From an uncultured Dokdonia sp. (lineage in GTDB: Bacteria; Bacteroidota; Bacteroidia; Flavobacteriales; Flavobacteriaceae), in contig NZ_CANLNH010000001.1 of the NCBI RefSeq assembly GCF_947492535.1, forward strand, positions 1-64,000: a stretch of DNA of 64,000 nt, written 5' to 3'. The notes beneath the pieces were generated by a model. It was not told the origin of the DNA, did no database searches, and saw only the letters and a program-made list of their open reading frames with translations. This document shows positions 2,834 to 60,900 of this stretch, piece by piece (within the stretch, counting starts at the first letter, position 1; each line of letters starts with the position of its first letter). The position numbers and the translations under genes are program-made.

Positions 2834-5800
2834 TTATTTTTGTAATTGGTATACATGTGCTTTGTCATTATTAAAGGTAACCAAAAGATATGTTTTTGTC
2901 TCTAACGGTAGGATGGTAAGATGTCTTACTGATTTTTGAGCGAGGTCTAATCCTAATTGATGACCTAATGTACTACTTCCATCACTTTTAATCAATGCTC
3001 CAGAGAAAGAATCAAGTCTTCCGTGAAAGGGCTTTACTCCAAAGTAATTTCCAGCCGCGAGCACTTCTTCCTTCCCGTCTCCATCAAAATCATAAGTTTC
3101 AAATGCCATGATAGGCGCTACTTGTAAGTTTTCGCCGAAAGGCACAAAAGTAAAACGGCCTCCTTCATTTCTTAAGTATCCAGATTGTAAGGTATGTACT
3201 GTTAGTTTTGTGCTTTCTGAAATGGCTTTTTTTCCGAAGATCTCTTCTACGGTCTGACCTCCAAAATCTTGATAACTTGTATATTTTTTAAAGAGATTGG
3301 TCATTTGTCCTCCCAGATCATTAAGACCTACAAGGGGGTAATAAGCTCCTTCTTTTTGAGTCGCAACGATAGTTTCTGACTGACCGTTATCATCAAAATC
3401 ATCGAGATAAGCATACATAGGTGTTTCAGGAGTAGCCACAAATTTGCTATTTTGTCCCCAGTTTCCTAAGATATAATCGATGTCCCCATCGGCGTCCATA
3501 TCAAAAGGTGCTATCGCTTGCCATAAACCATTTAAAGGAGTATTCATGATCGTTACTTTTCCAAGGGTTCCATTGGTGTTTGCATAAAATTGAGGCATCA
3601 TCCATTCACCAATAAGAACAAGGTCTTTAGTGCCGTCTCCATTGAAATCGCTCCAAACAGCATCTGTGAGCATACCAATATTATCAAAAGAAGTTGAGGT
3701 ATCTATTGTAAAAGTACCGTTGTCATTGCGCAGTAATACCGATTCTGAAGGACGCCCAAAGTCATTTGCGATAGCTTGATTGCCTACAAATACATCCAAG
3801 TCTCCGTCATTATCATAATCATGTACAGCAAGCACAGAGGCGTTCTGAAAGCTCTCTGGAAGTTGCTGTTGTACAAAAGTGGTGTCTTGTGCTGTGAAAT
3901 ATACATCCTTTAGTGGTTTGGATCTTTTACTAAAATCTGCCCCTCCAGTACCAATGAATAGATCTGCACGACCATCTTGATTAAAGTCTTGTATGGTAGC
4001 TACCACATCTTCTGTGCTATTTTCTTTTGTAATTGAAGGATAAGAAGCTTCTGTAAATCCAGTACTATCTCTTAGGTAGATTTTGGATGCTATAAACTTA
4101 GAACTTCCAAAGTAAATGTCGTCTTTTTGATCACCGTTTAGATCTCCAATAGCAACCGCAGGACCCCGATCTGATACCTGATATGGAATTAATTTCTGTC
4201 TATTGAAATCAATATATGGGTCTTCCGTATGTGTAAAATCAATGCCAAGATTATCAGCTACTTTTTTGAAAAGGGATTTCTGGGTAGGTTGAAGGCTTTT
4301 ATAATCAAAGGGTATATTGCCTTTCGGCGAAATAGTGAGCGTCTGATTAACAGGAACGTCCATAAGCGTTTGTGCCGTACGATCTGGCCAAACAATTTTA
4401 ATGTAATCTATAGTCGTTTCATTTCCGAAACCAAAGTGAAGTATAGGTTCTGAAGATGCTTGAAAACCACGTACCGTATATAGCTCTTTGTATTGTAATT
4501 GCCCTTTGTTGTATGCAAATACTTTTGTGCCTATTCCGAATCTATTGGAGGGTTTATAATCAAAACGAATTTTCAAATAGTTTGCAGAGGCATCGGTTGT
4601 GTTTTGATATACCTGAGGTGTAGTATTGATATTATTGGTTACAATATCTAAGTCTCCATCATTATCTAGATCGGCTAGGGCAGTAGCTCCAGAAACTAAA
4701 GTGTCTTTTTTAGTCCATGTGCCAGAGAGGTCTTCAAAAGCTAATTTCCCCTTTCCTTTAAAAATATAATTGTGTGTATTTCCCTTAGGCATTAAGTCTA
4801 AGGCTTTCTGATCAATGAGCTTAGTGTTACTTATTTTATTTTGAATTTGCTCACTAGAGATAAAACGAATATAATCAAGATCATTAGGGCGTTTAGGAAT
4901 TCCGTTTGAGATAAATAAATCTTGCGAACTATCTTGATCAAAATCAGCAAACAGAGCGCTCCAACTCCAATCGGTTGCAGCAATACCACTTAAGAGAGCG
5001 GTCTCTTGATAGTCATATCCTTTTTGGTTTACATACAACATATTGCGTGTAAACTGATAATGATACCCAAAACGATCAATACGTAATTTCTGTGTTTGAA
5101 TATTATCATCTCCTTCAGACGATTTTAATACTTTTTCATCTTCAGGTAACATGTCTAGAGAGATCATATCTGGCCATCCATCGCCATTAATATCTGCTAC
5201 ATCACTTCCCATAGAAAAACGTGAGGTGTGTCCAAAATAGTCTTTTAAGCTTTCGCGAAAGCTTCCTTCTCCAGTATTCAAATAGTAATAATCATCTTCA
5301 TGGAAATCATTTCCTATATAAATATCTGGCCATCCATCTTGGTTGAAATCGGCAATAGCGATTCCTAATCCGTAGCTATTGATTCCTCCTAAGATGCCTG
5401 CTTCTTCACTTACATCTGTAAATTTCCCGCCATCATTTCGCATCAATCGATCTCCTGTTTCATAATTACGTTTAAAACGCAAGGAAGACTTTCCATAAGA
5501 GTCTTGTGTGTGTACTGCATGGTTGAGAATGTAAACATCTAAATCGCCATCAAGATCATAATCTAAAAATGCCGCATTAGAACTATAGGTATCTAAATCA
5601 AGCCCATATTTGGCAGCGCTTTCTGTAAATGTTTCATCACCATTATTGATGTACAATTCATTATGTCCATCAAACCCATTAATACCTACCACAGCACATA
5701 CATAAATATCTAACAATCCATCCCCATTTACATCGCCCATCACAGCACCTGTATTCCATGTACTATTTCCTCGTATTCTTGCTTGAACGCTAATGTCTTC

Positions 5801-6085: not shown

Positions 6086-9000
6086 TGTATACTCTTGGTT
6101 TTTCGTTGTTAATAGCAGCTATTAAAAAGGTATTGCCTTTTTTATCTTTAAATGTCGCTAGATGTTTGATTTCTTCACGAACCTCAAAGCCGCTTGTTGT
6201 ATACTCTTGCCATTCAAATCCAAGATTTCCATCGCCTAATAATACATTACCACTACTGGCATCCAATTGTGAATATTGTGGTTTGAATTCAAAATTATTA
6301 CCCCCCATCACAAGGTCTAAATTTCCATCATTATTAATGTCAGTACACGCAATACCACATACACATGATAACTGTACACGTACAGGTAAGTCTTGAATTT
6401 TAAAAGTGCCATTGCCTTCATTAATCGCAATCACAGAGGCTGCTGTTTGTACCTGTTTTACAATAGAGACATCAATGACTTCTTTTGGAAATAACTCATC
6501 AATAGATCGTTTTGCATAATCAGACGCTTTGATGTTTTGCTTTTTAAGCGAGACCAATTGTCCCGTTAGTTCTTTCTTCTGATGAAGCGGATAATCTTTT
6601 CCGTCTTTCTGGAAGGTGGTGATTTGCTCAATAGTACCATTATTGTCAAAGTCATTAATGTACATTTTCATAGGAGCCCCTTCTTCTGGTTTATAATGAA
6701 TATTTGTCCCTTCATTACCTAATACCAGATCGAGGTCACCATCATTATCAAGATCTGATGCTTCTACCGTATTCCACCAACCATGTAAATCGTCTAGTGA
6801 ACTTTTCATAGGGGTAAGTCGTCTTCCATTATTTTTGAAGATTTTTGTAGTACCCCATTCTGAAGTAACCACAAGATCTTTTTTGCCATCTTGATCCATA
6901 TCTGCCCAAAGTGCATCGGTAATCATTCCGGCATCTTTAAGCGGGTATGCAATACGTTCTGTCGCATTAGAGAATTCTCCGTTTCCTCTGTTTTCTAAAA
7001 AGAGATGTTCTGGATCGATTCCATATACAGCAATCACACTTCGTGATCCTACAAAGACATCCATATCGCCATCTTGATCAAAATCATAAGGTGCGATCAC
7101 AGACATGTTCTGGTAGGCAGAGGGTATGGTATTTTCCGCTTTCGCGAAAGCGCCCTTACCATCATTCAAATATAAACGAAGGCTATAATCTGTTTTGGTC
7201 GTTACTTCATTACCGCCTGAGCCCACCATAAGATCTAAATCTCCATCATTATCTGCATCAAAAAATGCCGCCGCCGAATCTTCATAGTTTGCTTCTTTCT
7301 TAAAAATCGCATTGTTAGGAGCTTTGGTAAGTACCCCATTGCCTTTATGTAAATAGATCGTTCCTGCTTGTTTTTTTGCGCCTCCAATAAATACATCTTC
7401 ATGCCCATCACCATTTACATCTCCAATGGCAAGGGAAGGTCCTTCTTGTGATAGTTTTTTAGCGATAAGTCCTTCGTAATCAAAATCACTATACTCGTTT
7501 TCTTTATGTGTGTCTAGTGATGTATTTGTAATCTCATTAAAGAGTGTTTGTATTTTCTTAGGAGCGGGTGCTTTATAGGTTGCTGTAGCATCTGTAATCT
7601 GTAGCTGAAGCGTTTGATTAACCGTAAGATTCTCAAAAGTCTGTGTTTTGTCATTAGGCCAAATCACACGTAAGGAGTCTATTTTTTGAGAGGTGCCTAA
7701 TCCTATAGTCATTCCGTGCTCCATAGACGATTGGAATCCTCTAGAAGGGACTAATTCTTGAATATAGGTTTGCCCTCCGTGATATAAACGTACAGATGTG
7801 CCAATCGCAAAAGGATTCTTTTCTGCGCCTTTAAATTTTAATTTGATATAGTTATGATCCTTTTCTTTATCCGTATTGTTTCTATAGATAAAAGAAGGCA
7901 TATTTACGTTATTGACCACTAAGTCAAGATCGCCATCATTATCTAAATCGCCATAGGCAGCACCGTTAGACATACTTAAAATTTCAAGTCCCCAATCTTT
8001 GGCTTTGTTTTTAAACGTAATATCGCCTTGGTTTTGGTAGGCATAATTAGAAAGAGGTTTTACTGGCATTTTATTAATGATAGTGTCTAATACTCTGGTC
8101 TCTCCTTTAGCTTTACTTTGGATAATTTCATTAGCAAAAAAATCTATAAAATCGAGATCGGTAAGATCATGGTTGATTCCATTAGTTACATAAATATCAC
8201 GATATCCGTCATTATCCATATCAAAGACCAATCCTGACCAACTCCAATCGGTAGCTTCTACACCACTATGATAGGCCACTTCAGAGAAGGTGCCATTTCC
8301 ATTGTTTACTTGTAGTGTGTTTTGAATAAATTGTTGGTAGAAATCATTACGTTGCTTTCGCTTGTAGACATTGTATCCATCAAATTCCATCACTGATTTT
8401 ACACGCTCTTCGCCATCAGGAAGCATATCTGTGATAAAAATATCTTGTAGACCGTCATTATTAATATCTGAAATATCAACCCCCATGGCAGAAAGAGATA
8501 GGTGAGAGGTCCATTTTTTGATTTCTTCAGTAAAGGTGCCATCTTGATTATTGATATATAAATAATCGCGCTCAAAGAAATCATTGGAGATGTAAATGTC
8601 GGGATACAAATCATGATTTATATCGGTAACCATCACACCGAGCCCAAAACCTATTAATGAGCCGTAAATACCTGCTTCGTCACTTACGTCTGTAAAAACA
8701 CCATCGTCATTGCGCATTAATAAATCACCAACACCTCTAAACTGACTGTCTATATTTTCCCAATCCTGTGCACGTTTATCACGTTGCCCTTCGTTTCCAA
8801 GACTTCGTACAGGCACATTACTATTGTTTAATATATATACATCTAGGTCTCCATCCTTATCGTAATCAAAGAAAGAAGCATGTGTTGAAAATCCTGAAGT
8901 CGCTAAGTTGTACTCTTTTGCTTTTTCGGAAAAGGTAAGATCTCCATTGTTGATGTATAGATCATTATCATGGTTATTTGCTTCTAGATTTCCTGCATTA

Positions 9001-9434: not shown

Positions 9435-9440
9435 ATACTA

Positions 9441-12400
9441 TTACTTCTCTTTTTTTAGAAATAGAGGGGTGTCATTATTACGTCCTACAACATAAAAGAC
9501 ACGTTCTTTTATTTTAATTTTTTGAATACTTCGGGAAGCCCCTTTGATATCATAATTCTGATTTGAAAGTGTGCTAAATCCACCCTTTGTATCATTTTTC
9601 AAAAATACGCCATGAGAGCCATCTAGCCTACCTAATTGCGTACTTATTTCATAGTTGTTGCCTACTAACAGGACGTCTAGAAAGCCATCTTCATCAAAAT
9701 CTTCTATAAGAAGATCATGAACGGAAGAAGCTTGTGCTAAAAAGGGTAATTCATGTGCTTGAAATACGCCATTTCCTTTGTTTTCAAAATAGGTAGACGC
9801 AAATAGATAGGCTTCTTTCTTTTCAGAAGATTGTAATTTTTCTTTACCTAGTAGTTGTGTTAAGTTCGCTTTCGCGAAAGCGTTATAAGACAGAAACTTT
9901 TTATTTAGGAAAGGAAGTTGTTTTACAAGCTCATCTTTAGTTGCTATAGTGGTTTCTATACCCTGATAATAATACGTAACGATAGGATCAATTTGTTTAT
10001 TGTCGTCAAAGTCATTGCGATATAATGTCACAGGCTCCTCCAGTGTAGGCTGTAAACGTGTATTTAATCCCCAATTCCCCGCTATAATATCTTGGTCACC
10101 ATCATTATCAAAGTCGGCAACTTTGATGGTGTTCCACCATCCATGTGTGTTTTCTAATCCTTCTGTTTTTTGACGTTTTAACGATGTTCCATCATTTATA
10201 AAAATAGTGATAGGCATCCAATGTCCAGCAATAATTGCATCTGGATAGTCATCATTATTTACGTCTTGCCAAGTGATATCGTATACATTTCCTACATTCT
10301 GAAATTCTTTTGAATAGGTAGCTGTAATATCTTTAAAATGACCATTACCATCATTTTTAAATAGGTATTGTGTGGGGGTTTCACCAAATTGATGTGGTAC
10401 TACATTAGCGGTGATAGCGATATCTACATCTCCATCCTTGTCTAGATCTATAGCTGTTACTTTAGATGCATTGATATTAATGTCATTAAATTGTTCTGAG
10501 TCTCTCTGAAGCACACCTTCATTTGTAATATATAATCTAGGGGCTAGTGGTTTTCCTCTTTTAAATTCATTACCACCACTTACAATCAATACATCATTTA
10601 TTTGATCTCCATTAGCATCAAAGATCAATGAGTGAGTGTCTTCATTGATTTTAGTTTCTTTTGCGTCAGGTAGTTCTTGTGGTTGAAAATCTCCTGATTC
10701 ATCTTGGATCCAAATCTGAGAGGATTGTCCTTTTGCTCCTAATGTAATGATATCTTCTTTTTGGTCATTATTTAAATCTCCAACATTAATATAGGGTCCT
10801 AAATTAGTACTTGCATACGGGACTAAAAGAGATCGACTAAATTCTATTGAAGTACCATCTCGATGTTTAAAATCTATAGGGGTTGTGCTATTTGTAATCA
10901 AAGAGTTTTGAATTTCTTGTGAATTACTCTCAATATGTCCTGAAGCATTTTTATAATCTAAAACAATAGTTTGATCTGCTTGAGTATTTTGGAGCGTTTG
11001 AATTTTTCCATCTGCCCAGACAACCTGTAAAGAATCTATTTGTTTCTGTGTTCCCAATCCTATAAAAAGCGTAGGGGGTGTTGCAGATAAATATCCTTGT
11101 GGATAGTTCTCAAAAAACTGTTTTTCTTCTTTCGTATATATGGAAACTTTTGCACCAACACCTTGTGTGTTTTTTATACTTCCTTTAAAGTTTATTTTTA
11201 AATAATGCGTGGCGCTTGTGTCCTGTCTTGTCGTATTTTCTAATATAAGTGCATTTTGATTTACATTATTGACGACAATGTCTAAATCACCATCATTATC
11301 TAGATCTGCGTAGCTAGCACCATTACTAAAAGAAGTTTGCGGAGTTTGCCAGGAATCACTCATATTTTCAAACTGAGTGTTTCCTTTATTTTTATAAAAG
11401 TAATTGATAGTTTTTTTCTCTGGGAGTTCATCTATGAAGGTAAGTTCTTTAGAACTCATGCCTTTGCCAAGGCGTTTTTGAATACTTTCATTGGAGATAA
11501 AGTTAACAAAGTCCATGTCATTTGTAGCTCCTTTTATACCATTAGTGATATAGATGTCTTTTTTACCATCGTTATCAAAATCGGCGATAAGTGGAGACCA
11601 CGACCATTCTGTTGCAGATATACCACTAAGAAATGCGGTTTCGGTGTACTTATTATTACCCAGATTTAAATGCAATGTGTTTTGCATAAATTGAGGCTCA
11701 TATCCATTACGCAATTGATTCTGAAAAATAGGGTAGTTGTATTCTGTACCAGAAACTTTTAAAGACTGCAAGTTTTCTGGTAGCATATCTAGAGACATGA
11801 TATCTGAAAGGCCATCATTATTGATATCAGATATAGCATTTCCCATAGAGAAGTGTGTACTATGACCTAGTATGGATTGCGTAGAATTTACTTCTGTAAA
11901 TGTCTTGTCTTTTTGATTGATGTAGAGGTAGTCATTTTCAAAAAAATCATTTCCAATATATATATCTGGATATCCATCCTTGTTGATATCAGATATAGAG
12001 ATGCCAAGTCCATAGCCTAATCTACTTTGGAAAATTCCAGCTTTAGTCGTTACATCTATAAATTGACCGTTTTGATTTTCTAATAACTTGTCTCCATAAA
12101 GTGTGTCCACTTTTTTGCGTAATGTACCTTTTCCATAGTTGCTATTTGGGTGTAGCGAATGGTTTAAAATAAATACATCAAGATCTCCATCTGTATCATA
12201 ATCAAAAAAAGATGCTTGCGTAGCTAGGCCTTTTAGATCTAAGCCATACCTTTTTGCTTGTTCTTTAAATTGAGGAATTCCATCAGTATTGTTTCCTTGA
12301 TTGATGAATAATAGATTTGTTCCTTTTAAGTTAAGATGTCCATCTACTTTTGAGATATAGATGTCTAATAAGCCATCATTGTTGATGTCTACAGTAGTAA

Positions 12401-19205: not shown

Positions 19206-19217
19206 GCATGTATGCGC

Positions 19218-19227
19218 TTTCGCGAAA
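19218..19227. repeat. Iterated palindrome copy 4 (intergenic)
   Basis: In GCGCTTTCGCGAAAGCAT between the convergent HI0933-type and tspO genes. Confidence 0.9.
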
Positions 19228-19282
19228 GCATATAAAATATAAATAGCTGAATAATAGAATATTAAATATATTTTTAGTGAGT

Positions 19283-19759: not shown

Positions 19760-19824
19760 TTGGTACTACCAATGTATAAAAAAACTCGTAAAAACTTCCA
19801 TACAAATAATAGAAAGACAACAGT

Positions 19825-19832
19825 TATCTTTG
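19825..19832 (+). promoter_or_regulatory. -7 box (TATCTTTG) of mvaD
   Basis: Exact TAnnTTTG match 20 bases before the mvaD ATG at 19853. It supports that start over the longer in-frame ATG at 19760. No clear -33 element at standard spacing. Confidence 0.55.
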
Positions 19833-19852
19833 CCAAAACTTATAATTCTTAT

Positions 19853-20929
19853 ATGTCTGAAGATTCTTTTGTTTTACATTTAAACACAGCCATACTTTCA
19901 GCCGGATCTGTGTCTTGGCAATCTCCTAGTAATATTGCTTTAGTAAAGTATTGGGGAAAACATGGGGAACAATTACCTCAAAATGCTAGTATAAGCTTTA
20001 CCTTAAGTAATTGTCATACAACCACAATCTTGCATTATACTCAAAAAGAATCTGAAGGATTTGAATTTGAAGTATATCTAGATGGTCAAAAAGAGGTGGG
20101 TTTTGAACCTAAGATTGCTAGTTTTTTTAAACGAATAGAAAAATATGTTCCTTTTATAACAAACTATCGTTTTAAGATTGAGACGTCAAATTCATTTCCG
20201 CATAGTTCAGGAATTGCCTCTTCGGCATCCGGAATGAGTGCATTGTCTTTATGTATTATGGACATAGAGCGACAACTTTCTCCTGAAATGACCGAAAGTT
20301 ATTTTATGCAAAAAGCATCCTTTTTATCTCGTCTAGGATCTGGAAGTGCTTGCCGAAGTTTGGAAGGCCCTCTTATTGTTTGGGGAGCACATCAAGATAT
20401 CTCAAATAGTAGTGATTTGTATGGTACTTCATATCCATACGAAGTGCATTCAAACTTTCAAGAATATCAAGATACGATACTACTAGTAGATAAAGGAGAG
20501 AAACAAGTAAGTAGTACTGTGGGACATGGGTTGATGCATGGGCACGCTTTCGCGAAAGCAAGGTTTACACAGGCTCACGATAATTTAGTCCAGTTAAAAG
20601 AGGTGTTAGCCTCTGGAGATTTGGATGCTTTTATCGCCTTAGTTGAAAGTGAAGCACTCACATTACATGCGATGATGATGACCAGTCATCCTTATTTTAT
20701 ATTGATGAAGCCTAACACACTAGAGATCATAAATCGTATATGGGAGTATAGAGAAAACACAGACTCAAAAGTATGTTTTACACTTGATGCAGGAGCTAAT
20801 GTACATGTGCTATATCCTAAAAAAGAAACCAAAGAGATACACCTTTTTATAGAGAATGAATTGTCAAAGTTTTGCCAAAACAACCACTATATTAATGATA
20901 GCGTGGGAAATGGAGCAAAAAAATTGTAG
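19853..20929 (+). CDS. mvaD: Diphosphomevalonate decarboxylase
   Basis: 359 residues from the chosen ATG at 19853. The alternative ATG at 19760 adds 31 residues, begins upstream of the promoter box and lacks family resemblance. The enzyme converts mevalonate 5-diphosphate to isopentenyl diphosphate using ATP. Visible features are the family N-terminus SNIALVKYWGKHGEQLPQN, the GHMP ATP loop PHSSGIASSASGMSAL (about residue 116) and the catalytic Asp in LDAGANVH (about residue 312). It is followed 29 bases later by mevalonate kinase and then a UbiA-type gene. An iterated palindrome encodes AFAKA in the C-terminal half. Confidence 0.95.
   Translation: MSEDSFVLHLNTAILSAGSVSWQSPSNIALVKYWGKHGEQLPQNASISFTLSNCHTTTILHYTQKESEGFEFEVYLDGQKEVGFEPKIASFFKRIEKYVPFITNYRFKIETSNSFPHSSGIASSASGMSALSLCIMDIERQLSPEMTESYFMQKASFLSRLGSGSACRSLEGPLIVWGAHQDISNSSDLYGTSYPYEVHSNFQEYQDTILLVDKGEKQVSSTVGHGLMHGHAFAKARFTQAHDNLVQLKEVLASGDLDAFIALVESEALTLHAMMMTSHPYFILMKPNTLEIINRIWEYRENTDSKVCFTLDAGANVHVLYPKKETKEIHLFIENELSKFCQNNHYINDSVGNGAKKL
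20548..20557. repeat. Iterated palindrome copy 5 (AFAKA frame)
   Basis: Core of CGCTTTCGCGAAAGCA. It encodes HAFAKAR in mvaD. Confidence 0.9.
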
Positions 20930-21924: not shown

Positions 21925-22830
21925 ATGCTTTCGCGAAAAAACAAACGAAGACTTCTTAAGGTGTTTAGTTTGTTTTCTGTAGTGAGAGGGTATAATATTC
22001 TGGTGATTGTACTGGCCCAATACCTCGCATCTATATTTATATTATCCTCGGGTAGAACATTAAGAGAAGTTGTCTTTGATCTCAATCTTTTTATGCTTGT
22101 TATTGCTTCTGCAGCAACCATTGCAGGCGGATATATCATCAATAACTTTTACGATTCAGAAAAAGATTTAATTAATAGACCTCGCAAAACAATGTTGGAT
22201 AGATTGGTAAGTCAAAATACCAAACTCTCTTTTTATTTTGTATTGAATTTTCTGGCCGTTATTGCTGCTAGTTATGTCTCATTTAGAGCAGTTGTCTTTT
22301 TTGCGATTTATATTTTTGGCATTTGGTTATATTCTCATAAGTTGAAGAAGAGACCTTTTATAGGAAATCTTACCGCGGCAGTACTAGCCATTACTCCTTT
22401 CTTCGCTATCTTTTTGTATTACAAAAACCTCGATACCGTCATTTTTGTACATGCTAGTTTTTTGTTTTTGGTGATTGCAATGCGCGAACTCACAAAGGAT
22501 TTAGAAAATTTAAAGGGAGATTTGGCACAAGGATATCGAACAATTCCTATTGTGTTTGGAGAAAAAACGTCCAAATGGATGCTTACCGCCTTAGCAGGTC
22601 TGACAATAATACCAGTTTATTTCTTAATCAATCATTTTGAAGTAGGATATATGGATTTTTACTTTTATGCGAGTGTAATTGCATTACTCTTTTTTTTAGG
22701 AGCCTTATGGAAATCACAAGCAAAACTTCATTATTTATTATTACATAATATTTTAAAGTTTATTATTGTAGCAGGTGTTTTTTGTATCGTCCTCATCAAA
22801 CCTAATGAATGGTTACGATTTATTACTTAA
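21925..22830 (+). CDS. UbiA-family prenyltransferase (geranylgeranylglycerol-phosphate synthase-like)
   Basis: 301 residues with about eight to nine membrane helices. The first Asp-rich motif is NNFYDSEKDLINRP (residues about 73-86) and the second lies around ELTKDLENLKGD (about 188-199), the two metal/diphosphate-binding sites of UbiA enzymes. These transfer prenyl chains to aromatic or polar acceptors; the form next to mevalonate genes in Bacteroidota is often annotated as geranylgeranylglycerol-phosphate geranylgeranyltransferase, but the acceptor is unproven. The ATG directly precedes an iterated palindrome, so residues 2-5 (LSRK) are palindrome-encoded. Confidence 0.85.
   Translation: MLSRKNKRRLLKVFSLFSVVRGYNILVIVLAQYLASIFILSSGRTLREVVFDLNLFMLVIASAATIAGGYIINNFYDSEKDLINRPRKTMLDRLVSQNTKLSFYFVLNFLAVIAASYVSFRAVVFFAIYIFGIWLYSHKLKKRPFIGNLTAAVLAITPFFAIFLYYKNLDTVIFVHASFLFLVIAMRELTKDLENLKGDLAQGYRTIPIVFGEKTSKWMLTALAGLTIIPVYFLINHFEVGYMDFYFYASVIALLFFLGALWKSQAKLHYLLLHNILKFIIVAGVFCIVLIKPNEWLRFIT
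21929..21938. repeat. Iterated palindrome copy 6 (LSRK frame, at a gene start)
   Basis: GCTTTCGCGAAAAA one base after the UbiA-type ATG. Only the left GC flank is kept. Encodes MLSRK. Confidence 0.85.
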
Positions 22831-22845: not shown

Positions 22846-23610
22846 TTAAGAAGGTCTTTTTTCACTTAAATACTTCCAGTACCTTTTTGGGACATGCTGC
22901 ATATGTAACTTCATGTTTTTCCGTGATGCAATGTTGGTGCTCTTAAAGTAATTTTGCCATAATTCTTCGTATTGTAGTTCTTCTTCTGTAAAGTAAATAG
23001 TTGCTTTTGATGGTGTGTTAACGTCAGAAGTAAGTGCTAGTTCAATCGTTTCTACCGTATGAAGGTCATAATAGATACCATACTTTCGCTTGAGATCATA
23101 GATGAGCCATTTTTGATCTGCGTATCGTTTTTTAAAATGATTTGAGTTGAGAGGTAAGACATTAAAATCGGGTGCTATTGTAGCGAAATAGATGTTGTCC
23201 TTTGTTTCGCGAAAGCGTACAAAAGCATCCATACGGTGTTTTTCTCGGCCTACCATTTTAACGACTTTTCGTATTTGAACCACATCAAAATCAGTGTAGT
23301 CTTCTATAGATGTTTGGTGTTTAAAAAGCTTTACAATATAAGAGAGTAGTGTGTTTTCAATACCTTCTTTTTCACTCAAAAAAGCACGATAGATGGCTGT
23401 TGTAGTTATGGCACCTCCAGTTTGTTTGAGACCTTTCCAAACACGTTCGGCCTTTACAGAATCTGTAGTGATGGTTTCTTTTGTGTCAAAAATAGATAAC
23501 GCATTATTGTAATTAGGGACAATAGATAGTGATGTCGGTTTTTGTTCATAGTATTCAAAAACACAGGTAAGAAATCCTTCAAAAGAACTGTCATATCTAT
23601 AAATAGCCAT
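22846..23610 (-). CDS. TIGR03915-type probable DNA metabolism protein
   Basis: 254 residues from Met at 23610 (MAIYRYDSSFEGFLTCVFE); the upstream Met at 23652 would overlap the preceding gene. The opening matches the TIGR03915/DUF4130 family, found next to or fused with uracil-DNA-glycosylase-like and radical SAM partners and annotated as a probable DNA metabolism protein. Conserved-looking segments include KMVGREKHRMDAFVRF and the C-terminal HVPKRYWKYL. It begins 13 bases after its radical SAM partner ends. Cytoplasmic; reaction unknown. An iterated palindrome encodes RFRE in the middle. The family name is from recall of the pattern. Confidence 0.8.
   Translation of the reverse strand: MAIYRYDSSFEGFLTCVFEYYEQKPTSLSIVPNYNNALSIFDTKETITTDSVKAERVWKGLKQTGGAITTTAIYRAFLSEKEGIENTLLSYIVKLFKHQTSIEDYTDFDVVQIRKVVKMVGREKHRMDAFVRFRETKDNIYFATIAPDFNVLPLNSNHFKKRYADQKWLIYDLKRKYGIYYDLHTVETIELALTSDVNTPSKATIYFTEEELQYEELWQNYFKSTNIASRKNMKLHMQHVPKRYWKYLSEKRPS
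23205..23214. repeat. Iterated palindrome copy 7 (FRE frame)
   Basis: TTTCGCGAAAGCG, right flank only. Encodes VRFRE in the TIGR03915-type gene. Confidence 0.85.
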
Positions 23611-23623
23611 GGTGATATTGGTG

Positions 23624-24975: not shown

Positions 24976-24985
24976 TTTCGCGAAA
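24976..24985. repeat. Iterated palindrome copy 8 (intergenic)
   Basis: GTTTTTCGCGAAAGCG between the divergent radical SAM and nitrilase genes; right GC flank only. Confidence 0.85.
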
Positions 24986-25038: not shown

Positions 25039-26004
25039 ATGACACATCCAGAGAATCATCTTAAAATAGCCATGGCGCAAATTGCTCCTGTTTGGCTTAA
25101 TAAACAAGCAACCTTAGAGAAAATTAAAAAATCCATTACAGAAGCAGCTCAAGAAGGAGCAGAGCTTATCGTGTTTGGAGAAGGCGTATTACCAGGCTAT
25201 CCGTATTGGTTAGCACTCACTGGAGGTGCCGAGTGGAATAAAGATGTAGTGAAAGAGCTACATGCACACTACGCTCGTAACTGTGTTGATATTGATGCAG
25301 GCGATTTAGAAGAGGTGTGTGCGCTTTCGCGAAAGCATAACATAGCCATTTACTTAGGTATTATTGAACGTCCACAAGATCGAGGTGGACATAGTTTATA
25401 CGCTTCTTTGGTTTATATAAACCAAGAAGGGGAGATACAATCAGTACATCGTAAATTACAGCCTACCTATGATGAACGTTTAACGTGGGCGCCTGGAGAT
25501 GGCCATGGACTACAAGTACATCCTTTAAAACAATTTACTGTTGGCGGACTAAACTGTTGGGAAAATTGGATGCCGTTACCACGTGCAGCTTTATATGGAC
25601 AAGGTGAAAATTTACATATTGCTGTTTGGCCAGGAAGTGATTATAATACGAAAGATATTACCCGATTTATAGCGAGAGAATCACGTTCTTTTGTGGTGTC
25701 TGTATCAAGTAGAATGCTTAGATCAGACTTTCCAAAAGACACACCTCATTATGATGAGTTGGTGAAGAACGCTCCAGAATTGTTATCGAATGGAGGGTCA
25801 TGCATTGCTGGACCTGATGGAGAATTTATAGTACATCCAGACATTACTACAGAAGGGAATATATATCATACTATTGATTTTAATCGTGTGTATGAAGAAC
25901 GACAAAACTTTGATGCAGTAGGACATTATTCACGCCCAGATGTAACGCAATTAAGTGTAAATAGAGAACGTCAGAGTACGATTAAGTTGTCTCCCTCATC
26001 CTAA
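25039..26004 (+). CDS. Nitrilase-superfamily carbon-nitrogen hydrolase
   Basis: 321 residues. The catalytic Glu-Lys-Cys triad is visible: Glu 48 in FGEGVLPGYPYW, Lys 139 in HRKLQPTYDE and Cys 173 in GGLNCWENWMP. The NCWEN form is typical of true nitrilases, which turn nitriles directly into carboxylic acid and ammonia, rather than amidases. Cytoplasmic. It stands alone with a strong terminator downstream. Its last residues (LSPSS) and stop codon lie inside a dispersed palindromic repeat, so the C-terminus may have been rewritten by that insertion. An iterated palindrome encodes ALSRK at about residue 97. The natural nitrile substrate is unknown. Confidence 0.9.
   Translation: MTHPENHLKIAMAQIAPVWLNKQATLEKIKKSITEAAQEGAELIVFGEGVLPGYPYWLALTGGAEWNKDVVKELHAHYARNCVDIDAGDLEEVCALSRKHNIAIYLGIIERPQDRGGHSLYASLVYINQEGEIQSVHRKLQPTYDERLTWAPGDGHGLQVHPLKQFTVGGLNCWENWMPLPRAALYGQGENLHIAVWPGSDYNTKDITRFIARESRSFVVSVSSRMLRSDFPKDTPHYDELVKNAPELLSNGGSCIAGPDGEFIVHPDITTEGNIYHTIDFNRVYEERQNFDAVGHYSRPDVTQLSVNRERQSTIKLSPSS
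25325..25334. repeat. Iterated palindrome copy 9 (LSRK frame)
   Basis: Core of GCGCTTTCGCGAAAGCAT. Encodes CALSRKH in the nitrilase; only 349 bases from copy 8, the closest pair in the window. Confidence 0.9.
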
Positions 26005-38620: not shown

Positions 38621-39079
38621 ATGAAAAAACAAGCATTAAAAGAAGAGCTATTTAAACATTGTCAATCTCAACTGGGATTACGCCGTGCTGCGGTAGATAA
38701 TATATTAAAAAATGTGGCGCTATCTCTTAAAGAAGAAACCAAAAGCTCTGCAGGAGATAAGCATGAAACAGGAAGAGCAATGCTTCAGCTAGAAAGAGAA
38801 AATGCAGGAAAGCAATTGGCTGAAATAGAAAAGCTAGAAGCAATTCTCCATCGTATATCTACGGCTATTTCTTCTGGACCTGTGCATTTGGGGAGTGTTG
38901 TGCATACAAGTCAAGCAAATTACTTTATAAGTATTCCTGTAGGAGAAATTAAAACAGAAGCAGGTGTCTTTTATGCTATTGGCGTAGGATCTCCTATTGG
39001 AAAACTGTTACTAGGAAAACAGGAAGGTGATGAAGTACGCTTTCGCGAAAGCGTATTTAAGATTAACACCATTTACTAA
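38621..39079 (+). CDS. GreA/GreB C-terminal-domain-like protein with coiled-coil N-terminus
   Basis: 152 residues. The N-terminal half (about 1-80) is charged and helical, like an antiparallel coiled coil, with ETGRAMLQLERENAGKQLAEI in its second helix. The C-terminal half (about 85-150) resembles the FKBP-like domain of GreA/GreB (VGSPIGKLLLGKQEGDEVRF). Real GreA proteins rescue stalled RNA polymerase using acidic residues at the coiled-coil tip; whether this one does is unclear. Bacteroidota homologues are sometimes mislabelled as 3-oxoacyl-ACP synthase. An iterated palindrome encodes RFRESVF near the C-terminus. Confidence 0.75.
   Translation: MKKQALKEELFKHCQSQLGLRRAAVDNILKNVALSLKEETKSSAGDKHETGRAMLQLERENAGKQLAEIEKLEAILHRISTAISSGPVHLGSVVHTSQANYFISIPVGEIKTEAGVFYAIGVGSPIGKLLLGKQEGDEVRFRESVFKINTIY
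39041..39050. repeat. Iterated palindrome copy 13 (FRE frame)
   Basis: Core of CGCTTTCGCGAAAGCG. Encodes VRFRESVF in the GreA-like gene. Confidence 0.9.
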
Positions 39080-41472: not shown

Positions 41473-42408
41473 TGCTAGCTTTATCTGATCATCAGGAACA
41501 TATTGTTTTGAAGATTCAAAAAAGATAGTAATATCTTTATTTGTGCTCTCTATTAAATAATAGCTTCCTTTAAAATAGCTTTGTTGTATAATAACATCAA
41601 GACCCGTAGTTGCTTCAGTGATTTGATGAGGATAGACCAGGACTAATGTAGATGTATCCTTTAATGTTGGGTCAAACAGATACGCAGGAATTTCATTTAC
41701 TTCCCCAAAAAGAGAGGCAATATAGTGTGTCTTTGGATGTTTATAGAGTTCTTTTGTAGGGGCATTTGCAATGATTTCTCCTTCTCGAATGACAATAGTA
41801 TGGTCCATATACGATAAAATATCCGTGCTGTCATGAGTGGCTACAATACAAGTGATTTGTTGTTTTTTTAAATAGGAAAACAGCTTTCTTCTCAATCTGT
41901 TTTTTCTAAAGTTATCAATATGAGAAAAAGGTTCGTCGAGCAATAAAATTTCGGGTTCTTTTGCAATTGATTGCGCGAGTGCTACGCGTTGTTTCTGTCC
42001 TCCAGAAAGTGTTTTTACATGCGCTTTCGCGAAAGCGGACATCTCCACCACTTCCAATAATTCCTCAGTACGTTGCGTACTTTCTTCTGGATATAAACGA
42101 GAAAGGAATTTTTTGATATTCTCTTCAACCGAAATAAAAGGCATTAAATCAAAATCTTGAGAAAGATATTTGATAAAAGGCATCCCAGGAACAAGGTTTT
42201 CTTTAGGCCCTGTTATTTGTTGGTCTTTCCAAGAAATAGTGCCAGAATTTGTATCATATAAACCATAAATTAACTTTAATAATGTTGTTTTTCCACAACC
42301 ACTTTCTCCTATAACAGCGACATGAGCCCCTTGTTTGATCTGAATAGAAACATCTCGTAATGAGAAACGGTCAGAAATAGTAAACGATACATTTTTGATA
42401 GTAAGCAT
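41449..42408 (-). CDS. ABC transporter ATP-binding protein (FbpC/PotA-like), orphan
   Basis: 319 residues. Walker A is GESGCGKTTL (about 34-43), signature LSGGQKQR (about 134-141), Walker B EILLLDEPFSHID and H-loop ATHDS. A C-terminal extension (about 235-319) looks like a TOBE-type regulatory domain. Such ATPases energise iron, polyamine or molybdate importers, but no permease or binding protein is adjacent, so its partner is unknown. The ATG is only 7 bases from a TACCTTTG box, so the mRNA has almost no leader. The 3' end overlaps the convergent methyltransferase gene by 24 bases. An iterated palindrome encodes AFAKAHV just before the signature motif. Confidence 0.9.
   Translation of the reverse strand: MLTIKNVSFTISDRFSLRDVSIQIKQGAHVAVIGESGCGKTTLLKLIYGLYDTNSGTISWKDQQITGPKENLVPGMPFIKYLSQDFDLMPFISVEENIKKFLSRLYPEESTQRTEELLEVVEMSAFAKAHVKTLSGGQKQRVALAQSIAKEPEILLLDEPFSHIDNFRKNRLRRKLFSYLKKQQITCIVATHDSTDILSYMDHTIVIREGEIIANAPTKELYKHPKTHYIASLFGEVNEIPAYLFDPTLKDTSTLVLVYPHQITEATTGLDVIIQQSYFKGSYYLIESTNKDITIFFESSKQYVPDDQIKLALKTIIMD
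42025..42034. repeat. Iterated palindrome copy 14 (AFAKA frame)
   Basis: Core of GCGCTTTCGCGAAAGCG. Encodes SAFAKAHV, five residues ahead of the LSGGQ motif of the ABC ATPase. Confidence 0.9.
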
Positions 42409-44809: not shown

Positions 44810-47800
44810 TTAATTTTTTAGAATCGTATCATTTTCTGTAGTATCTGCTGGGATAGGAATAGATTCATCACCAAGGATGTCTTCTATACTTTCAACACTT
44901 TCTGGCTCATCGTCATCATAGAAGAAAGAGAATGCACGTAGGTAATTATTAAATTCTTTAGCTTTTTCTTCTACGAGTTCTTCATCTTGATTAGCGACTA
45001 ATAAATCAATAAGGCTTCTATACTTTTCTATATTAGTAATGATCTCTTCTGCATACTCATACTGGGTATTTTCAGAAAGACCACTAAAATACGTAAGCTG
45101 TTCTTGATATTTTTTAGCAAGCTGCTCCCATAGATCTCTTGCCTTTTGGGTTTCACCTACCTCGTAATAGCCACTTACGTATGGTTCTAATAATGTATAG
45201 AATTCAAAGATGTCTACAGGCATTTTTTCCATTGCCAAATCCATCAATTCTTTTGCCTTTTCAGGTTGATTCTCTATAATGAGTTGTTCTACAACACGCG
45301 CTATATTCCCGCGATATGTAATCGCATTAGAGCGTGTTTCACGATCATGATAGATGTTAGGGTCACCACTATTACCCCAATACCAGTCTTTGATAATCTC
45401 ATAAGATTTTTCAGAATCTATACGTCCCATATCATATGGATTACGAGGGTCTACTGGAGTACTGATAGGAATCAATTTAAAACATACGCCATCAAGCTGT
45501 AAATAATCCTTCATCCATAAATAATCGTCATCTCCAAAACTACCTCCTGTAAAATAAATAGGACGCTCCCAGTTATTCGTAGCAAGAATATCCATCATAA
45601 GAAGTCTATTCTTATATAGGATATCATTTTTTAATTCAATGTCTATATAAGGAACTACTAAGTCTGAATCTCTTTCTGGAATAATTTTATTCTTAAGTAC
45701 AGCATTTTTATCTACAGGGATTCTTATTTTCTTACTAGGAAAGGTATTTACTAGTTTTCCATTTCTGAGTTCTTCCTGTGTTCTAGGATCATCACTGGCA
45801 ATCCAGTTAAGCCAATCGCTAATAGGTGTGATATCATCTTCTCCTCTTTTAATTGGAGAATAAAATAAGGCATCACGGGTACCATAGCGGTATTTTTCGT
45901 GAGTAAGTGTACTAGGAACAGGATCGCTATCAAATGCTTTGCGTTTCATTTGATCCATATACCAATCGGTATTAATTAGACTCGTATTTACAACACGCAC
46001 ATCCGTACGATATCCTTCAATTTCTTGAACATACCAAAGAGCAAAGGTGTCATTATCACCTATGGTAAATAAAATAGCATTTTCATCTACCGAATCTAAA
46101 TATTTCCGAGCCATTGCAAGCGCTGTTTTACGTCCAGAGCGATCATGGTCATCCCAATTTTCTTTGGCTAATAATACAGGTGCGGCAAATAGACAGAGCA
46201 CCATAGCGATAGGAAGTGCTACTTTAGGTTTAATGAGATCTTTTAGAATATCAAATAGTGCATATGCGCCAAAACCTATCCACATAGCAAAGACATAAAA
46301 AGAACCTACTAATGCATAATCACGCTCTCTAGGTTCAAAAGGACGTTCATTTAGATACACTTTAAGCGCTAAGCCTGTAAATAAGAAAAAGACAAGGAGT
46401 ACCACAAAATTCTTCCGGTCTTTACTTGCATGAAATAGTAATCCTAATAGCCCTAATAATAAGGGTAAGAAGAAATAGGTGTTACGCGCTTTATTTTTTA
46501 ATACATCCGAAGGTAAATTATCTTGCGAACCTATAAATAAACTATCTACCCAATCTATTCCACTTATCCAATTTCCATTAAAGTTGTCTCCTTGACCTTG
46601 AATATCATTTTGACGTCCTGTGAAGTTCCACATAAAATAACGCCAATACATATACCCAAATTGATAACTAAACATATAAGAGATATTATCTCCAAAAGAA
46701 GGTTTCTCTATATCAAGGTAGGATCCAATTTCACTTCTTAAGAAAGAATTGTAACCATCATAATCTACTTTGCCTTGGGCATAGTCTAATTTAAACTGCG
46801 TAACAATTTCCTGTAATTCTGCGTTTCCTGCATAGTCTGCTTTAATACCAAATTTAAGTGGTCCTGTATACTGCATATAATTTGCGTTATGTTCAGGACT
46901 CCACATACGTGGTAAGAAAGCTTTATGGGCATCGTCAAGATTTTGACCTGCATCACGCCATTCATTTACAATAATATATTTGCCAGACTTTTCGTCTTTT
47001 TCATATTTTTTCTTTTCATCTACATAAGGATTATCTGGATCTAGTCCTGAGTAATCAGAAGTAAACTGAGGTCCATAAAAAAGATGTGTCTCTGGATATT
47101 GTTCACGATTGTAATACGCAAGTAGCTCACGCGCATTATTTGGATTGTTTTCATTTATGGTAGTTCCTGCATTCGCTCTTATAGGTAACATAAGCCAACT
47201 TGAGAAACCTATAAATATAAATAATACACACAGTAGTACTGTATTCAAGGCAGGCTTATTATGCTTTCGCGAAAGCGTAAACCCATAGTAAAAAAGCCCT
47301 GCAAGTAATAGTGCCGCGATAATAGTACCACTATTGAAAGGAAGTCCCATAGTATTTACAAAGAAAACTTCTAAGTGTCCAAAAATAGCAAGGGTGTATG
47401 GTAGTAAGAACTTAAATATAAATAGAAGAACAGCAACGACGACTACAAGCGCAATGATGAAATTTTTAGGAGTAATCTTTTTAGTATTTTTAAAATAGTA
47501 TAATAATCCTATTGCAGGAATGGTAAGAAGTCCCATGAAGTGAATCCCGAAAGACTGTCCTACAATAAAAGCAATAAGGATAAGCCATCTATTACCACGA
47601 GGCTTATGCATGTCACGTTCCCAAAGAAGTCCTAAATAAAATAGTAAGGATAGAATAAAAGCGGCAGGAGCATAAACTTCGGCTTCTACTGCATTAAACC
47701 AAAAACTATCTGTAAAACTAAAAGCAAGCGCTCCGATAGCAGCACTTCCAAGGATCGCATATTGTTTTGAAGTAGTTAGTACTTCGTTATTAATATGTAA

Positions 47801-50234: not shown

Positions 50235-50293
50235 AGCGTATGTGTTTAAAAGATTATTTACAAGAGGTAAATAAGCTATATATCTGAATGCGC

Positions 50294-50303
50294 TTTCGCG
50301 AAA
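50294..50303. repeat. Iterated palindrome copy 16 (intergenic)
   Basis: Core of GCGCTTTCGCGAAAGCG between the universal stress gene and its terminator. Confidence 0.9.
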
Positions 50304-50318
50304 GCGTACTCAGGAACA

Positions 50319-55969: not shown

Positions 55970-56362
55970 TTATCTCTTTGGGTCTGGTTTGAAGATTAAA
56001 GCATTAGGAAACTCTTTCTTAATTTGTATAAGCGCTCTATCAGCTTCAAGTCGATTTCTAAAACTTCCTACCCATACTTTATAGTTAGGCGTTTCGTATT
56101 CTATATCTGATTTCCACGTTCCCACCTTATTTCTAAATCGTTTAAGCATGGTTCCAGCTTGTGCGGAATTTCCAGAATAGATTTGAATTTTATAGTGGTC
56201 TCCAAGTTCGTTATCGTTGCTTAATTCGTTCTTTAATTCTAGTAATTGTGGAATCTTTGCATCTTGAGAAATGGTTACTTGTGCTGTTTGCGCTTTCGCG
56301 AAAGCGTAAAAAGACAGAAAAACGAAGAGTGTAAGTGCTTTACTATTAGGGTGTATTGTCAT
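55970..56362 (-). CDS. Exported SPOR-domain protein
   Basis: 130 residues. The signal peptide runs through LTLFVFLSFYAFAKAQ, with cleavage likely before QTAQV. The C-terminal 75 residues match the SPOR fold (YKIQIYSGNSAQAGTMLKRF and YKVWVGSFRNRLEADRALIQ), which binds denuded glycan strands at the septum or recycling peptidoglycan. Periplasmic. Notably, the end of the signal peptide (AFAKA) is encoded by an iterated palindrome. A minus-strand TACCTTTG box lies 22 bases upstream of the start. Confidence 0.87.
   Translation of the reverse strand: MTIHPNSKALTLFVFLSFYAFAKAQTAQVTISQDAKIPQLLELKNELSNDNELGDHYKIQIYSGNSAQAGTMLKRFRNKVGTWKSDIEYETPNYKVWVGSFRNRLEADRALIQIKKEFPNALIFKPDPKR
56294..56303. repeat. 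Iterated palindrome copy 17 (AFAKA frame)
   Basis: Core of GCGCTTTCGCGAAAGCG. Encodes YAFAKAQ, the signal peptide end of the SPOR protein. Confidence 0.9.
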
Positions 56363-56495: not shown

Positions 56496-56587
56496 CATAC
56501 GATTTGAAGAGCTCGATTAACAGTTTATTAACAGCAGTTATATTGTAATAATCGTGCCAAATTTTTGAAGCTAATTCAATACCAATT

Positions 56588-57883: not shown

Positions 57884-57916
57884 TTAAGGACGCCACTTTA
57901 AATAAGTATAATATAA

Positions 57917-57939
57917 GGTCACTGAGCATAGCGAAGTGC
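57917..57939. repeat. REP-like fragment between actA and actB
   Basis: GGTCACTGAGCATAGCGAAG continues to TGC; CACT and AGTG form short inverted ends. It resembles a dispersed intergenic repeat family common in Bacteroidota, seen here once. Confidence 0.35.
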
Positions 57940-57960
57940 AAATAGTATAAAATCAATTAT

Positions 57961-60900
57961 ATGTCATCAAACAAGAAATACTGGAAAAGTGTCGATGAGC
58001 TTAACGGAAACCCGTTAGTTGAAACACTAAGACAGAATGAGTTTGTAGAAGAGATTCCGACAGATGAGTTTTTAGGTGATAAAGAAACCTTAGAAACTTC
58101 TCAAACAACACGTCGTGACTTCTTAAAGTACGTAGGATTCACTACAGCAGCGGCATCGCTTGCAGCTTGTGAAGGTCCTGTTAAGAAATCCATTCCTTAT
58201 GTAGTGCAGCCAGAACAGATTGTTCCTGGAGTTGCAGATTATTATGCATCTACTATTGCAGATGGATTTGATTTTGCAAGTATACTTGTGAAAACTCGTG
58301 AAGGAAGACCTATAAAGATTGAAAATAATAAACTAGCAAAAGCGGGATACGGAGCAAATGCGCGTGTGCACGCTTCTGTGTTGTCTATGTATGATCAAAA
58401 TCGTGCACAAGGACCAACAGCTTCTGGTGAGGCAGTTACTTGGAGTGATATTGATGCAGGTGTGATGGCACAGTTGAATAGCGGGAAGCAAGTTGTGTTA
58501 TTAACACAGACATTTGCAAGTCCTTCTACTGATAAATTGATTGCTGAGTTTGTAGAAAAATATCCAAATGTTTCTCATGTTGCTTATGATGCAGTAGGTG
58601 AACAATTTGCACTTGATGCTTTCGAAGTAAAGTATGGGGTGCGTGCTCTTGCAGATTATGACTTCTCAAAAGCAGAAGTGATTGTATCTGTAGGTGCAGA
58701 TTTCTTAGGAGATTGGAACGGTGGAGGCTATGACGCTGGATATGCTAAAGGACGTATACCTACAGATGGTAAGATGTCTCGTCACTTCCAGTTTGAAGCA
58801 AATATGTCGCTGTCAGGAGCAAATGCAGATGTGCGTGTTCCTGTAACACCTTCTCAGCAAAAAGCAATATTAAATGCTTTGTCAACAGGCTCTATGTCTG
58901 GTGTTCCTGAGAATGCTAAGAAAGCAGTTAGTGCGGCTATAAGCGAATTAAGAGCGGCTGGAAGTAAAGGTGTTGTTGTAACGGGATTACAAGATGTTCC
59001 TTCTCAAACAAAAGCGCTAGAGATAAATGCAAATAGCGAAGTGATTGATGTTGCGGCACCAAGAATGACACGTTCTGGTGATATCCGTAAAGTAAATCAG
59101 CTTGTTAAAGATATGAATGCTGGTAAGGTAGGAATGTTGGTAATGGCAGGGGTAAATCCTTCATACACGCTTCCTAATGCAGAAGCATTTACTTCAGGTC
59201 TTGCTAAAGTTGCGGTATCTGTAGCGTGTTCTATGCGTGCAGATGAAACGGCTACTGCGGCAACACATATTGCACCAACACCTCATTATCTTGAGGCATG
59301 GGGTGATGTTCAAATAAAGCAAGGAGAGGTAAGTGTTACACAGCCTACCATACGTCCTTTATTTGATACAAGACAATTCCAAGATAGCTTACTAAAGTGG
59401 ATGGGAAGTGATCAGTCGTATTATGATTACATAAAAACGACAATGACTAATGCGGGTATTTCTTTTAATAAAGCAGTACACGATGGGGTTGTGATGACGG
59501 ACGCTTTCGCGAAAGCGGTCTCAACAAATACAGATACTTCTATAACGGAAGATGCAGGTGCTTCAACAACCTTCCAAGGAGGAGGTTTTGAATTGACCTT
59601 ATATACTAAAACATCAATGGGAGATGGTAATCAAGCAAACAATCCTTGGTTGCAAGAAATGCCAGATCCTATTACAAGAGCAACATGGGATAACTACATT
59701 ACTATGTCTGAAGCTGATGCTAAGGATAAAGACTTGTGGTTAGACCGTAGTACATTCTTTACAGAGGCGCGTCATGATGCTAATGGTGGTTTGAACGGAA
59801 AGCTTGCTAAAATAACCGTAAACGGTGTTCCTTTAATTGCTCCTGTAATGGTGCAACCAGGTCAAGCAAAAGGATCGATTGGTCTTGCTGTAGGGTATGG
59901 TAGAACAACATCTATTCAAGAAGAAATGCAAACAGGTGTGAACGCCTATCCATTAATGCTTAATGGTAGTATGACACAAGGAGGTGTTTCTGTTGAGAAA
60001 GTAGATGGAGTCCATGAGTTTGCAGTGATACAATTACACAATACCTTAATGGGGCGTGGTGATATTGTAAAAGAAACTAGACTTGAGATCTTTAATACAA
60101 AAGATAAAAATCACTGGAATAAAGTACCTCAAGTATCAAAAGATCATCAAGAATATGATGTGACTTCTCCTGATGTTGATCTTTGGGATGAGTTTGATCG
60201 TTCTATAGGACATCATTTTAATCTAGGAATAGATTTAAATGCATGTACAGGATGTGGGGCTTGTGTGATCGCATGTCATGCAGAAAACAATGTTCCTGTA
60301 GTTGGTAAATCAGAAGTACGCCGTAGCCGTGATATGCACTGGTTACGTATAGATAGATATTATTCTTCTCAAGATACTTTTGATGGAGATAATAAGAAAA
60401 AAGACGGATTTAGCGGACTTTCTGGAGACAATGGTTCTTTAGGAGGATTTGGAGAAATGGAAGATCCAGCTGCAAATCCACAAGTGGCTTTCCAGCCAGT
60501 AATGTGTCAGCACTGTAATCATGCTCCTTGTGAGACTGTATGTCCAGTAGCAGCAACATCACATGGTCGTCAAGGTCAAAACCATATGGCGTATAACCGT
60601 TGTGTAGGTACACGTTATTGTGCAAACAACTGTCCATATAAAGTACGTCGTTTCAACTGGTTCTTATATAATGGTAATGATGAGTTTGATTACCATATGA
60701 ATAATGACCTTGGACGTATGGTGATTAATCCAGATGTAACAGTACGTTCTCGTGGGGTGATGGAAAAATGTTCTATGTGTATGCAAATGACACAAAAAAC
60801 AATTTTAGATGCCAAGCGTGATGGACGTGTAATTAAGGATGGAGAATTTGCAACAGCATGTTCAAATGCATGTACAAGCGGAGCATTAACGTTTGGAGAT

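Follow-up and report, generated by a model that had tools for sequence, protein, structure and literature searches.

The palindrome TTTCGCGAAA is densely repeated in Dokdonia, and we propose that it is a label of self DNA, most likely a DNA-uptake sequence for a pilus-free transformation machinery (probability about 0.45). We studied it from a window of 64,000 nucleotides (contig NZ_CANLNH010000001.1 of an uncultured Dokdonia sp., positions 1–64,000), which holds 18 exact copies, 14 of them as the full 14-mer GCTTTCGCGAAAGC, compared with a mean of 0.06 and a maximum of 2 in 100 dinucleotide shuffles; a preliminary description of the window had called this excess far beyond chance, and the shuffles agree. 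Across the whole Dokdonia genome (4.86 Mb), TTTCGCGAAA occurs 1,094 times and GCTTTCGCGAAAGC 827 times (reversed controls, 21 and 0). We observe enrichment of the palindrome, origin by substitution, conservation at the DNA level, an intergenic excess, even spacing and, among the genomes searched, high counts in three genera only.

The palindrome is highly iterated in three genera

As a grossly overrepresented palindrome, GCTTTCGCGAAAGC shares this trait with highly iterated palindromes (HIPs). Its consensus is wider than the 14-mer, reading TACGC-TTTCGCGAAA-GCGTA over 103 sites in 464 kb of the window's own genome, and the sites are perfect palindromes of 14–20 bp. Exact copies of the 16-mer CGCTTTCGCGAAAGCG number 50, and a further 26 differ by one mismatch, the change falling in the outer three positions of either side in 25 of the 26. 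The preliminary description had allowed for counts close to a codon-shuffled expectation; with 20 synonymous shuffles for each of four stretches, the coding copies (57, 24, 47, and 53) proved about 17- to 29-fold more numerous than the shuffled means (2.20, 1.45, 1.60, and 2.45).

Counting across 59 genomes, the window's own included, gave 481–1,195 copies of TTTCGCGAAA in all 18 Dokdonia, 595 in one genome of g11, and 0–12 in the other 40 (reversed controls, 0–24). Among 395 Flavobacteriaceae genomes, an even draw from a larger group, the 12-mer TTTCGCGAAAGC reached 476–983 copies per strand in six genomes, namely two of g1, three of g11, and one of g183, and at most 26 per strand in the remaining 389, in some of which the copies are clustered on transferred islands. 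The genome-wide excess that the preliminary description had proposed to look for thus holds in Dokdonia and two other genera. The assignment to Dokdonia is supported by a window protein with 95% identity to D. pacifica. Among 80 named loci, four from Dokdonia have 3–8 sites each, three from Nonlabens 3–5, one from Leeuwenhoekiella a single site, and 72 none; judging by the sites in the named Nonlabens loci, g11 is probably Nonlabens. MurC of g11 and g183 is 55–59% identical to that of Dokdonia, compared with 54–60% for non-carriers, and in most other genes of the dcw cluster g183 is somewhat closer to Dokdonia than non-carriers are, while g11 is not. Two further lineages, g147 (G167 and G321; possibly Leeuwenhoekiella) and g133 (G311), have about 20 scattered palindromes per genome, above control, and are perhaps losing or just gaining the system.

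Sites arise by substitution and are kept as DNA

We compared twenty dcw regions, 18 from carriers and two from non-carriers, finding 4–11 sites in every carrier and none in either non-carrier. At 10 of 13 coding site positions, the orthologues align without inserted bases at the motif, indicating substitution; at the other three, the surrounding sequence is gapped or poorly conserved and therefore uninformative. Runs of several codons are replaced at dcw sites, and a gene called MurD-like from its position in the cluster reads GYAFAKAL in the g11 genome G027 compared with KETYKKVL in G000. An origin as a repetitive extragenic palindrome (REP) or insertion element is not supported, the 10 positions aligning without extra DNA.

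In the glycosyltransferase-like gene of the window (Table 1), the phenylalanine encoded by the motif is found in every one of five Dokdonia, among them the window, and in one of the three Nonlabens, compared with leucine in 73, methionine in one, and tyrosine in one of 75 non-carrier sequences. The same site thus appears in both Dokdonia and Nonlabens, where the starting sequence was favourable. A site in murC common to Dokdonia, g183, and g11 may be a second such case, or may reflect common descent or transfer. Three FG-GAP paralogues in the window each have one site, where alignment shows other residues in the other two, as the preliminary description had noted. Two further sites lie in a fourth paralogue, which is located outside the window; identity among all four is 33–39%. 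Its proposal that the palindrome was written independently into existing genes is borne out by the dcw positions and by the conserved leucine, which is replaced by phenylalanine only in carriers.

G000 and G011 share 86% identity along 127 kb, and 23 of their 26 aligned sites remain intact, compared with 31% of random 10-mers; for the more distant G014, 7 of 11 are intact, compared with 15%. One-sided sites occur in both directions in these comparisons. The sites are kept as DNA, and among relatives they are gained and lost, not fixed in place as the preliminary description had considered they might be. A long palindrome kept as exact DNA suggests that a dimeric protein reads it in the duplex.

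Sites are evenly spaced and in excess between genes

To describe spacing, we used four stretches from three genera and a null that preserves the split between coding and intergenic DNA (2,000 draws). The coefficient of variation (CV) of the gaps was 0.672 in G000 (103 sites), 0.743 in G011 (57), 0.481 in G248 (93), and 0.656 in G203 (61), compared with 0.98–1.04 under the null; three stretches fell below the lowest draw, and the value for G011 slightly exceeded that of its lowest draw (0.716). Gaps under 1 kb numbered 5, 0, 0, and 1 in the same order, compared with 22.8, 11.7, 21.2, and 8.6 expected, and against uniform placement P was 0.013 for G011 and 0.0001 or less for the other three. In the 400 kb of the Nonlabens-like G248, none of 92 gaps is under 1 kb and one exceeds 10 kb. 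By the same evenness test, Chi in E. coli is random (68 sites in 250 kb, CV 1.02), and neither five E. coli hexamers nor seven hexamers in the G248 stretch are significantly even.

Intergenic density exceeds coding density 8.1-fold in G000, 13.5-fold in G011, 8.7-fold in G248, and 2.0-fold in G203, which is the weak case, and 42–85% of copies lie inside open reading frames (ORFs), in any frame. Between co-directional genes, the median site is 27–50 bp past the stop and 79–95 bp ahead of the next start. By gap type, densities per kb are 1.25 for convergent, 0.58 for divergent, and 1.44 and 0.61 for co-directional pairs. Twenty 20-kb samples of the complete genome G016 hold 0–10 sites each; with the origin taken near ParB, the origin half has 60 and the terminus half 68, and one arm has 75 and the other 53 (P = 0.06). 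The origin–terminus bias raised in the preliminary description did not appear, and a strand bias has no meaning for a palindromic site.

The sole empty G016 sample, L346 (G016:C1:2855001–2875000), contains a cassette-like array with no palindrome in 20 kb; it has about a dozen units on one strand, long similar repeats between them (up to 12 copies), and attC-like ends recognised by eye. On contig C1 of the window's own genome, the identical sequence CCTGTGCTGAGC follows the sites at 171771 and 175533, and is perhaps part of another dispersed repeat (of TGAGCTTGTCGAAG type) also present in L346.

The palindrome is also found on mobile DNA

A related island with sites occurs in five genomes, from five other genera of Flavobacteriaceae (L028, L029, L031/L032, L033/L034, and L038). 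With Pfam names taken from the L028 and L029 copies, it carries an RND pump, an efflux protein, and the heavy-metal ATPase family in all five and a multicopper oxidase in four, and this copper/heavy-metal resistance island probably came from a Dokdonia-like donor. The palindrome stands at recurring places on it, with a separation of 933 bp in four of the six outer-membrane efflux genes. Elsewhere in other genera, sites lie on transfer genes. In three genomes, at L036:10509, L039:998, and L044:4894, a gene of DUF5712 (family scan of the L036 copy), which we take to be relaxase-like, adjoins a coupling protein and has the palindrome at the same offset (743). In G109 (g89), a span of 87 kb on a single contig contains 21 of 26 places among the matches listed; those of g147 and g133 are scattered. 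We infer that other genera took in carrier DNA without the motif spreading across their genomes.

Four virus contigs with head or tail genes have two or three sites in 11–14 kb; they were chosen for matching, from 120 stretches among the matches listed, and are a biased sample. Two or more cores are present in 14 of these 120 stretches. The palindrome is absent from a Nonlabens phage of 35.7 kb, where about 8 copies would be expected at the density of G248 (not that of its own host). When one window gene was used to look for plasmids, nothing matched.

A candidate uptake sequence without a pilus

This combination of traits is much like that of uptake sequences; what differs is the palindrome and the lack of a clear graded excess of mismatched forms. 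Uptake sequences are described as evenly spaced, in excess in non-coding DNA, of point-mutation origin, and of unusually strong consensus (PMC1939737; PMC1626085). Like the DNA uptake sequence (DUS) of Neisseriaceae and the uptake signal sequence (USS) of Pasteurellaceae, the motif here has about a thousand copies, a strong consensus, a point-substitution origin, an intergenic excess, and even spacing, and is shared by related species; unlike them, it is palindromic and longer, and most carriers have no pilus motor. In the same family, Riemerella columbina prefers its own DNA (PMC7965970), and R. anatipestifer transforms without pilus homologues, needing a DUF5689 protein and a CarboxypepD_reg protein of predicted outer-membrane location (PMC8459023).

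We suggest that the label would be recognised as duplex DNA by one protein specificity common to Dokdonia, the probable Nonlabens, and the third genus. Competent cells would preferentially take up site-bearing fragments and then recombine them, and sites would accumulate by point substitution wherever a protein or intergenic space tolerates them; a second copy would add little to a fragment, which would lead to even distances of about 4–6 kb. Protein binding, uptake as the selected step, and a receptor from a Riemerella-type pilus-free system are the presumed parts of this scheme.

Several points weigh against an uptake sequence. Published uptake sequences are non-palindromic and show a graded excess of mismatched forms (PMC1939737). 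In 1.19 Mb of Dokdonia DNA, single-mismatch and perfect cores stand at 85:273, compared with 764:1,471 in H. influenzae (PMC1939737). Single-mismatch cores amount to 0.072 per kb in Dokdonia and 0.040 per kb in a non-carrier set, a ratio of 1.77 that falls within the range of 19 control palindromes (0.49–5.82) and is no clear excess; the core is therefore very pure. For two-mismatch cores the ratio is 0.63, the lowest of 20 palindromes, with one control at 0.69, and we conclude nothing from it. The non-carrier set consists of the 72 of 80 named loci without a site plus L066 and L067, the four Dokdonia, the three Nonlabens, and the Leeuwenhoekiella locus (1 site) being excluded; its perfect copies are zero by construction, its mismatch classes not so.

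Gene content also bears on the receptor. We searched protein families in 28 genomes, 16 motif-rich (12 of them Dokdonia) and 12 non-carriers. The type IV pilus/type II secretion system (T4P/T2SS) ATPase (PF00437) is above cut-off in only 6 of the 16 motif-rich genomes, which argues against a pilus receptor of the Neisseria/Haemophilus type. With a crude filter on the sequence examined, we found an adjacent CarboxypepD_reg/DUF5689 pair, resembling the Riemerella transformation genes, in the motif-rich G248 (L300:7368–11681) and none in the other sequence examined, which is a small part of the genomes. The pair is described as widespread in Flavobacteriaceae (PMC8459023), so it does not explain a motif of three genera. 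Finally, an intracellular role would explain the spread of the motif to some virus contigs and mobile islands at least as well.

Beside the G248 pair, a palindrome core starts 43 bp beyond the end of the DUF5689 gene.

Alternative explanations

It is possible, though doubtful, that the motif has no known counterpart: a quasi-regular lattice of a 16–20 bp palindrome, about one per 4 kb and distance-selected, would be read by a putative protein of one specificity in three genera, at least one of which (g11) is no closer to Dokdonia than non-carriers are, and would act as a genome-wide self-marking or chromosome-spacing signal; mobile DNA of these hosts has it too. Rather unlikely, in our judgment, is a chromosome-organising lattice, in which sites at intervals of a few kb would let a putative DNA-binding protein structure, tether, or segregate the nucleoid. 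Even spacing and the lack of an origin–terminus difference in G016 fit such a lattice, and the mobile islands and virus contigs carry sites too. However, each site holds about 31–35 bits (an upper value, with sites selected by exact core), whereas about 12 would suffice to address them, and we are not aware of any nucleoid protein that has some 1,000 nearly identical sites. An extra, carrier-specific ParB was not supported: ParB_N (PF02195) has one match in 14 and two in 2 of the 16 motif-rich genomes, and two also in 3 of the 12 non-carriers. The sites of parS/Noc type are, like the motif here, TTTC...GAAA palindromes; they differ in their copy number, from a few to some tens, and in their inner spacer, which has 4 rather than 2 bases.

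We consider it improbable that the motif results, in the manner of HIP1, from a methyltransferase together with biased mismatch repair. The likeness to HIP1 of cyanobacteria (GCGATCGC) drawn in the preliminary description stands in outline, extends to alternate HIPs, and consists in an iterated palindrome both in and between genes; highly iterated palindromes have been linked to methyltransferases (Elhai 2015, PMC4390886). The differences are that the core 10-mer here is 60% AT, that the site is 14–20 bp rather than 8 with runs of several codons replaced, and that its density is about 225 per Mb, compared with 1,000–2,000 per Mb for HIP1 (PMC4390886). The family D12 (PF02086), found in 9 of 12 Dokdonia (one weak) and 2 of 12 non-carriers (weak), would favour a methyltransferase. 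But none of four families, C5 (PF00145), N6_N4 (PF01555), D12, and N6_Mtase (PF02384), is present in all 16 motif-rich genomes, a negative that covers these four (PF07669 and others were not searched) and that different families in each carrier would escape. The respective counts are 7, 2 (above cut-off), 10, and 15 of 16, and N6_Mtase is shared by 11 of 12 non-carriers and absent from the motif-rich G203. Outside the motif, TCGCGA is about equally frequent in Dokdonia (0.057 per kb) and non-carriers (0.063 per kb), which counts against a HIP1-type origin; we likewise rejected avoidance of TCGCGA as a restriction site, there being no depletion. A methylase confined to motif-rich genomes, as the preliminary description had envisaged, was thus not found among the four families, and of the roles it listed, uptake fits best, nucleoid organisation remains, and methylation is weakened.

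Equally improbable is a Chi-like site, readable from both sides, that would license or protect self DNA where double strands break. The Chi sites known are short and non-palindromic; the E. coli site is asymmetric, 8 bp long, and, by the evenness test above, randomly spaced, unlike the motif here. The RecC family (PF04257) is found in 0 of the 28 genomes (AddAB was not searched). The points in favour are the presence in mobile DNA and virus contigs and a similar copy number per genome, with 1,094 sites in 4.86 Mb compared with 1,008 Chi in E. coli K-12 (PMC1939737).

An RNA hairpin, acting as a transcription terminator or stabiliser of mRNA 3' ends, is disfavoured and the least likely of these. 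Intergenic copies do lie closer to the preceding stop than to the next start and are denser in convergent than in divergent gaps, and matched changes of the two arms at −3, −4, and −5 (0.21, 0.21, and 0.20, compared with 0.17, 0.16, and 0.09 expected) slightly exceed expectation. Against it, matched changes at −1 and −2 number 0 of 51 and 0 of 46 (4% and 3% expected), a large share of copies lies within ORFs in any frame, and a hairpin would not need an exact sequence.

Sites in the window

The 18 window sites are collected in Table 1. In agreement with the preliminary description, 15 lie within ORFs, in all three frames, encoding AFAKA (6), LSRK/LSRN (5), or FRE (4), and three lie between ORFs (cores at 19218, 24976, and 50294). 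The site at 21929 is counted as coding, but the true start of its ORF may be downstream of it.

Table 1. Palindrome sites in the 64,000-nucleotide window (strand given as "." throughout)
Form	Position	Strand	Context
GCTTTCGCGAAAGC	5249..5262	.	FG-GAP paralogue 1, ORF 2834-6085 (-)
GCTTTCGCGAAAGC	7138..7151	.	FG-GAP paralogue 2, ORF 6072-9434 (-)
GCTTTCGCGAAAGC	9868..9881	.	FG-GAP paralogue 3, ORF 9441-12737 (-)
GCTTTCGCGAAAGC	19216..19229	.	intergenic, between convergent ORFs, core 12 bp past a stop
GCTTTCGCGAAAGC	20546..20559	.	within ORF 19760-20929 (+)
core 10-mer, one GC half	21929..21938	.	first codons of ORF 21925-22830 (+)
core 10-mer	23205..23214	.	within ORF 22846-23652 (-)
core 10-mer	24976..24985	.	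intergenic, between divergent ORFs
GCTTTCGCGAAAGC	25323..25336	.	within ORF 25039-26004 (+)
GCTTTCGCGAAAGC	29851..29864	.	within ORF 29543-31183 (+)
core 10-mer	33086..33095	.	within ORF 32491-33879 (-)
GCTTTCGCGAAAGC	35690..35703	.	glycosyltransferase-like ORF 35366-36058 (-), Phe of FRE; class recognised from sequence without family scan
GCTTTCGCGAAAGC	39039..39052	.	close to 3' end of ORF 38621-39079 (+)
GCTTTCGCGAAAGC	42023..42036	.	within ORF 41449-42408 (-)
GCTTTCGCGAAAGC	47263..47276	.	within ORF 44810-48118 (-)
GCTTTCGCGAAAGC	50292..50305	.	intergenic, core 15 bp past stop of minus-strand ORF
GCTTTCGCGAAAGC	56292..56305	.	within ORF 55970-56362 (-)
GCTTTCGCGAAAGC	59503..59516	.	within ORF 57961-61029 (+)

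Implications for Flavobacteriaceae

Judging by titles and abstracts, with subscription papers mostly outside the coverage, we found no earlier report of the motif for Dokdonia, Nonlabens, or Bacteroidota, and the accessible part of a paper on spaced motifs names neither Dokdonia nor Nonlabens (PMC5217627). As far as these searches show, it would be the first signal of uptake or spacing type to be described in Bacteroidota. If it is a true uptake sequence, it would be a palindromic one, outside the pilus-based systems. Its even spacing is a measured length scale that any mechanism must explain, and the motif marks DNA that has passed through the carrier genera, as the copper-resistance islands suggest. 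Together, these observations make two questions experimental: how Flavobacteriaceae favour DNA of their own kind, and what lies behind highly iterated palindromes that no common methyltransferase accompanies.

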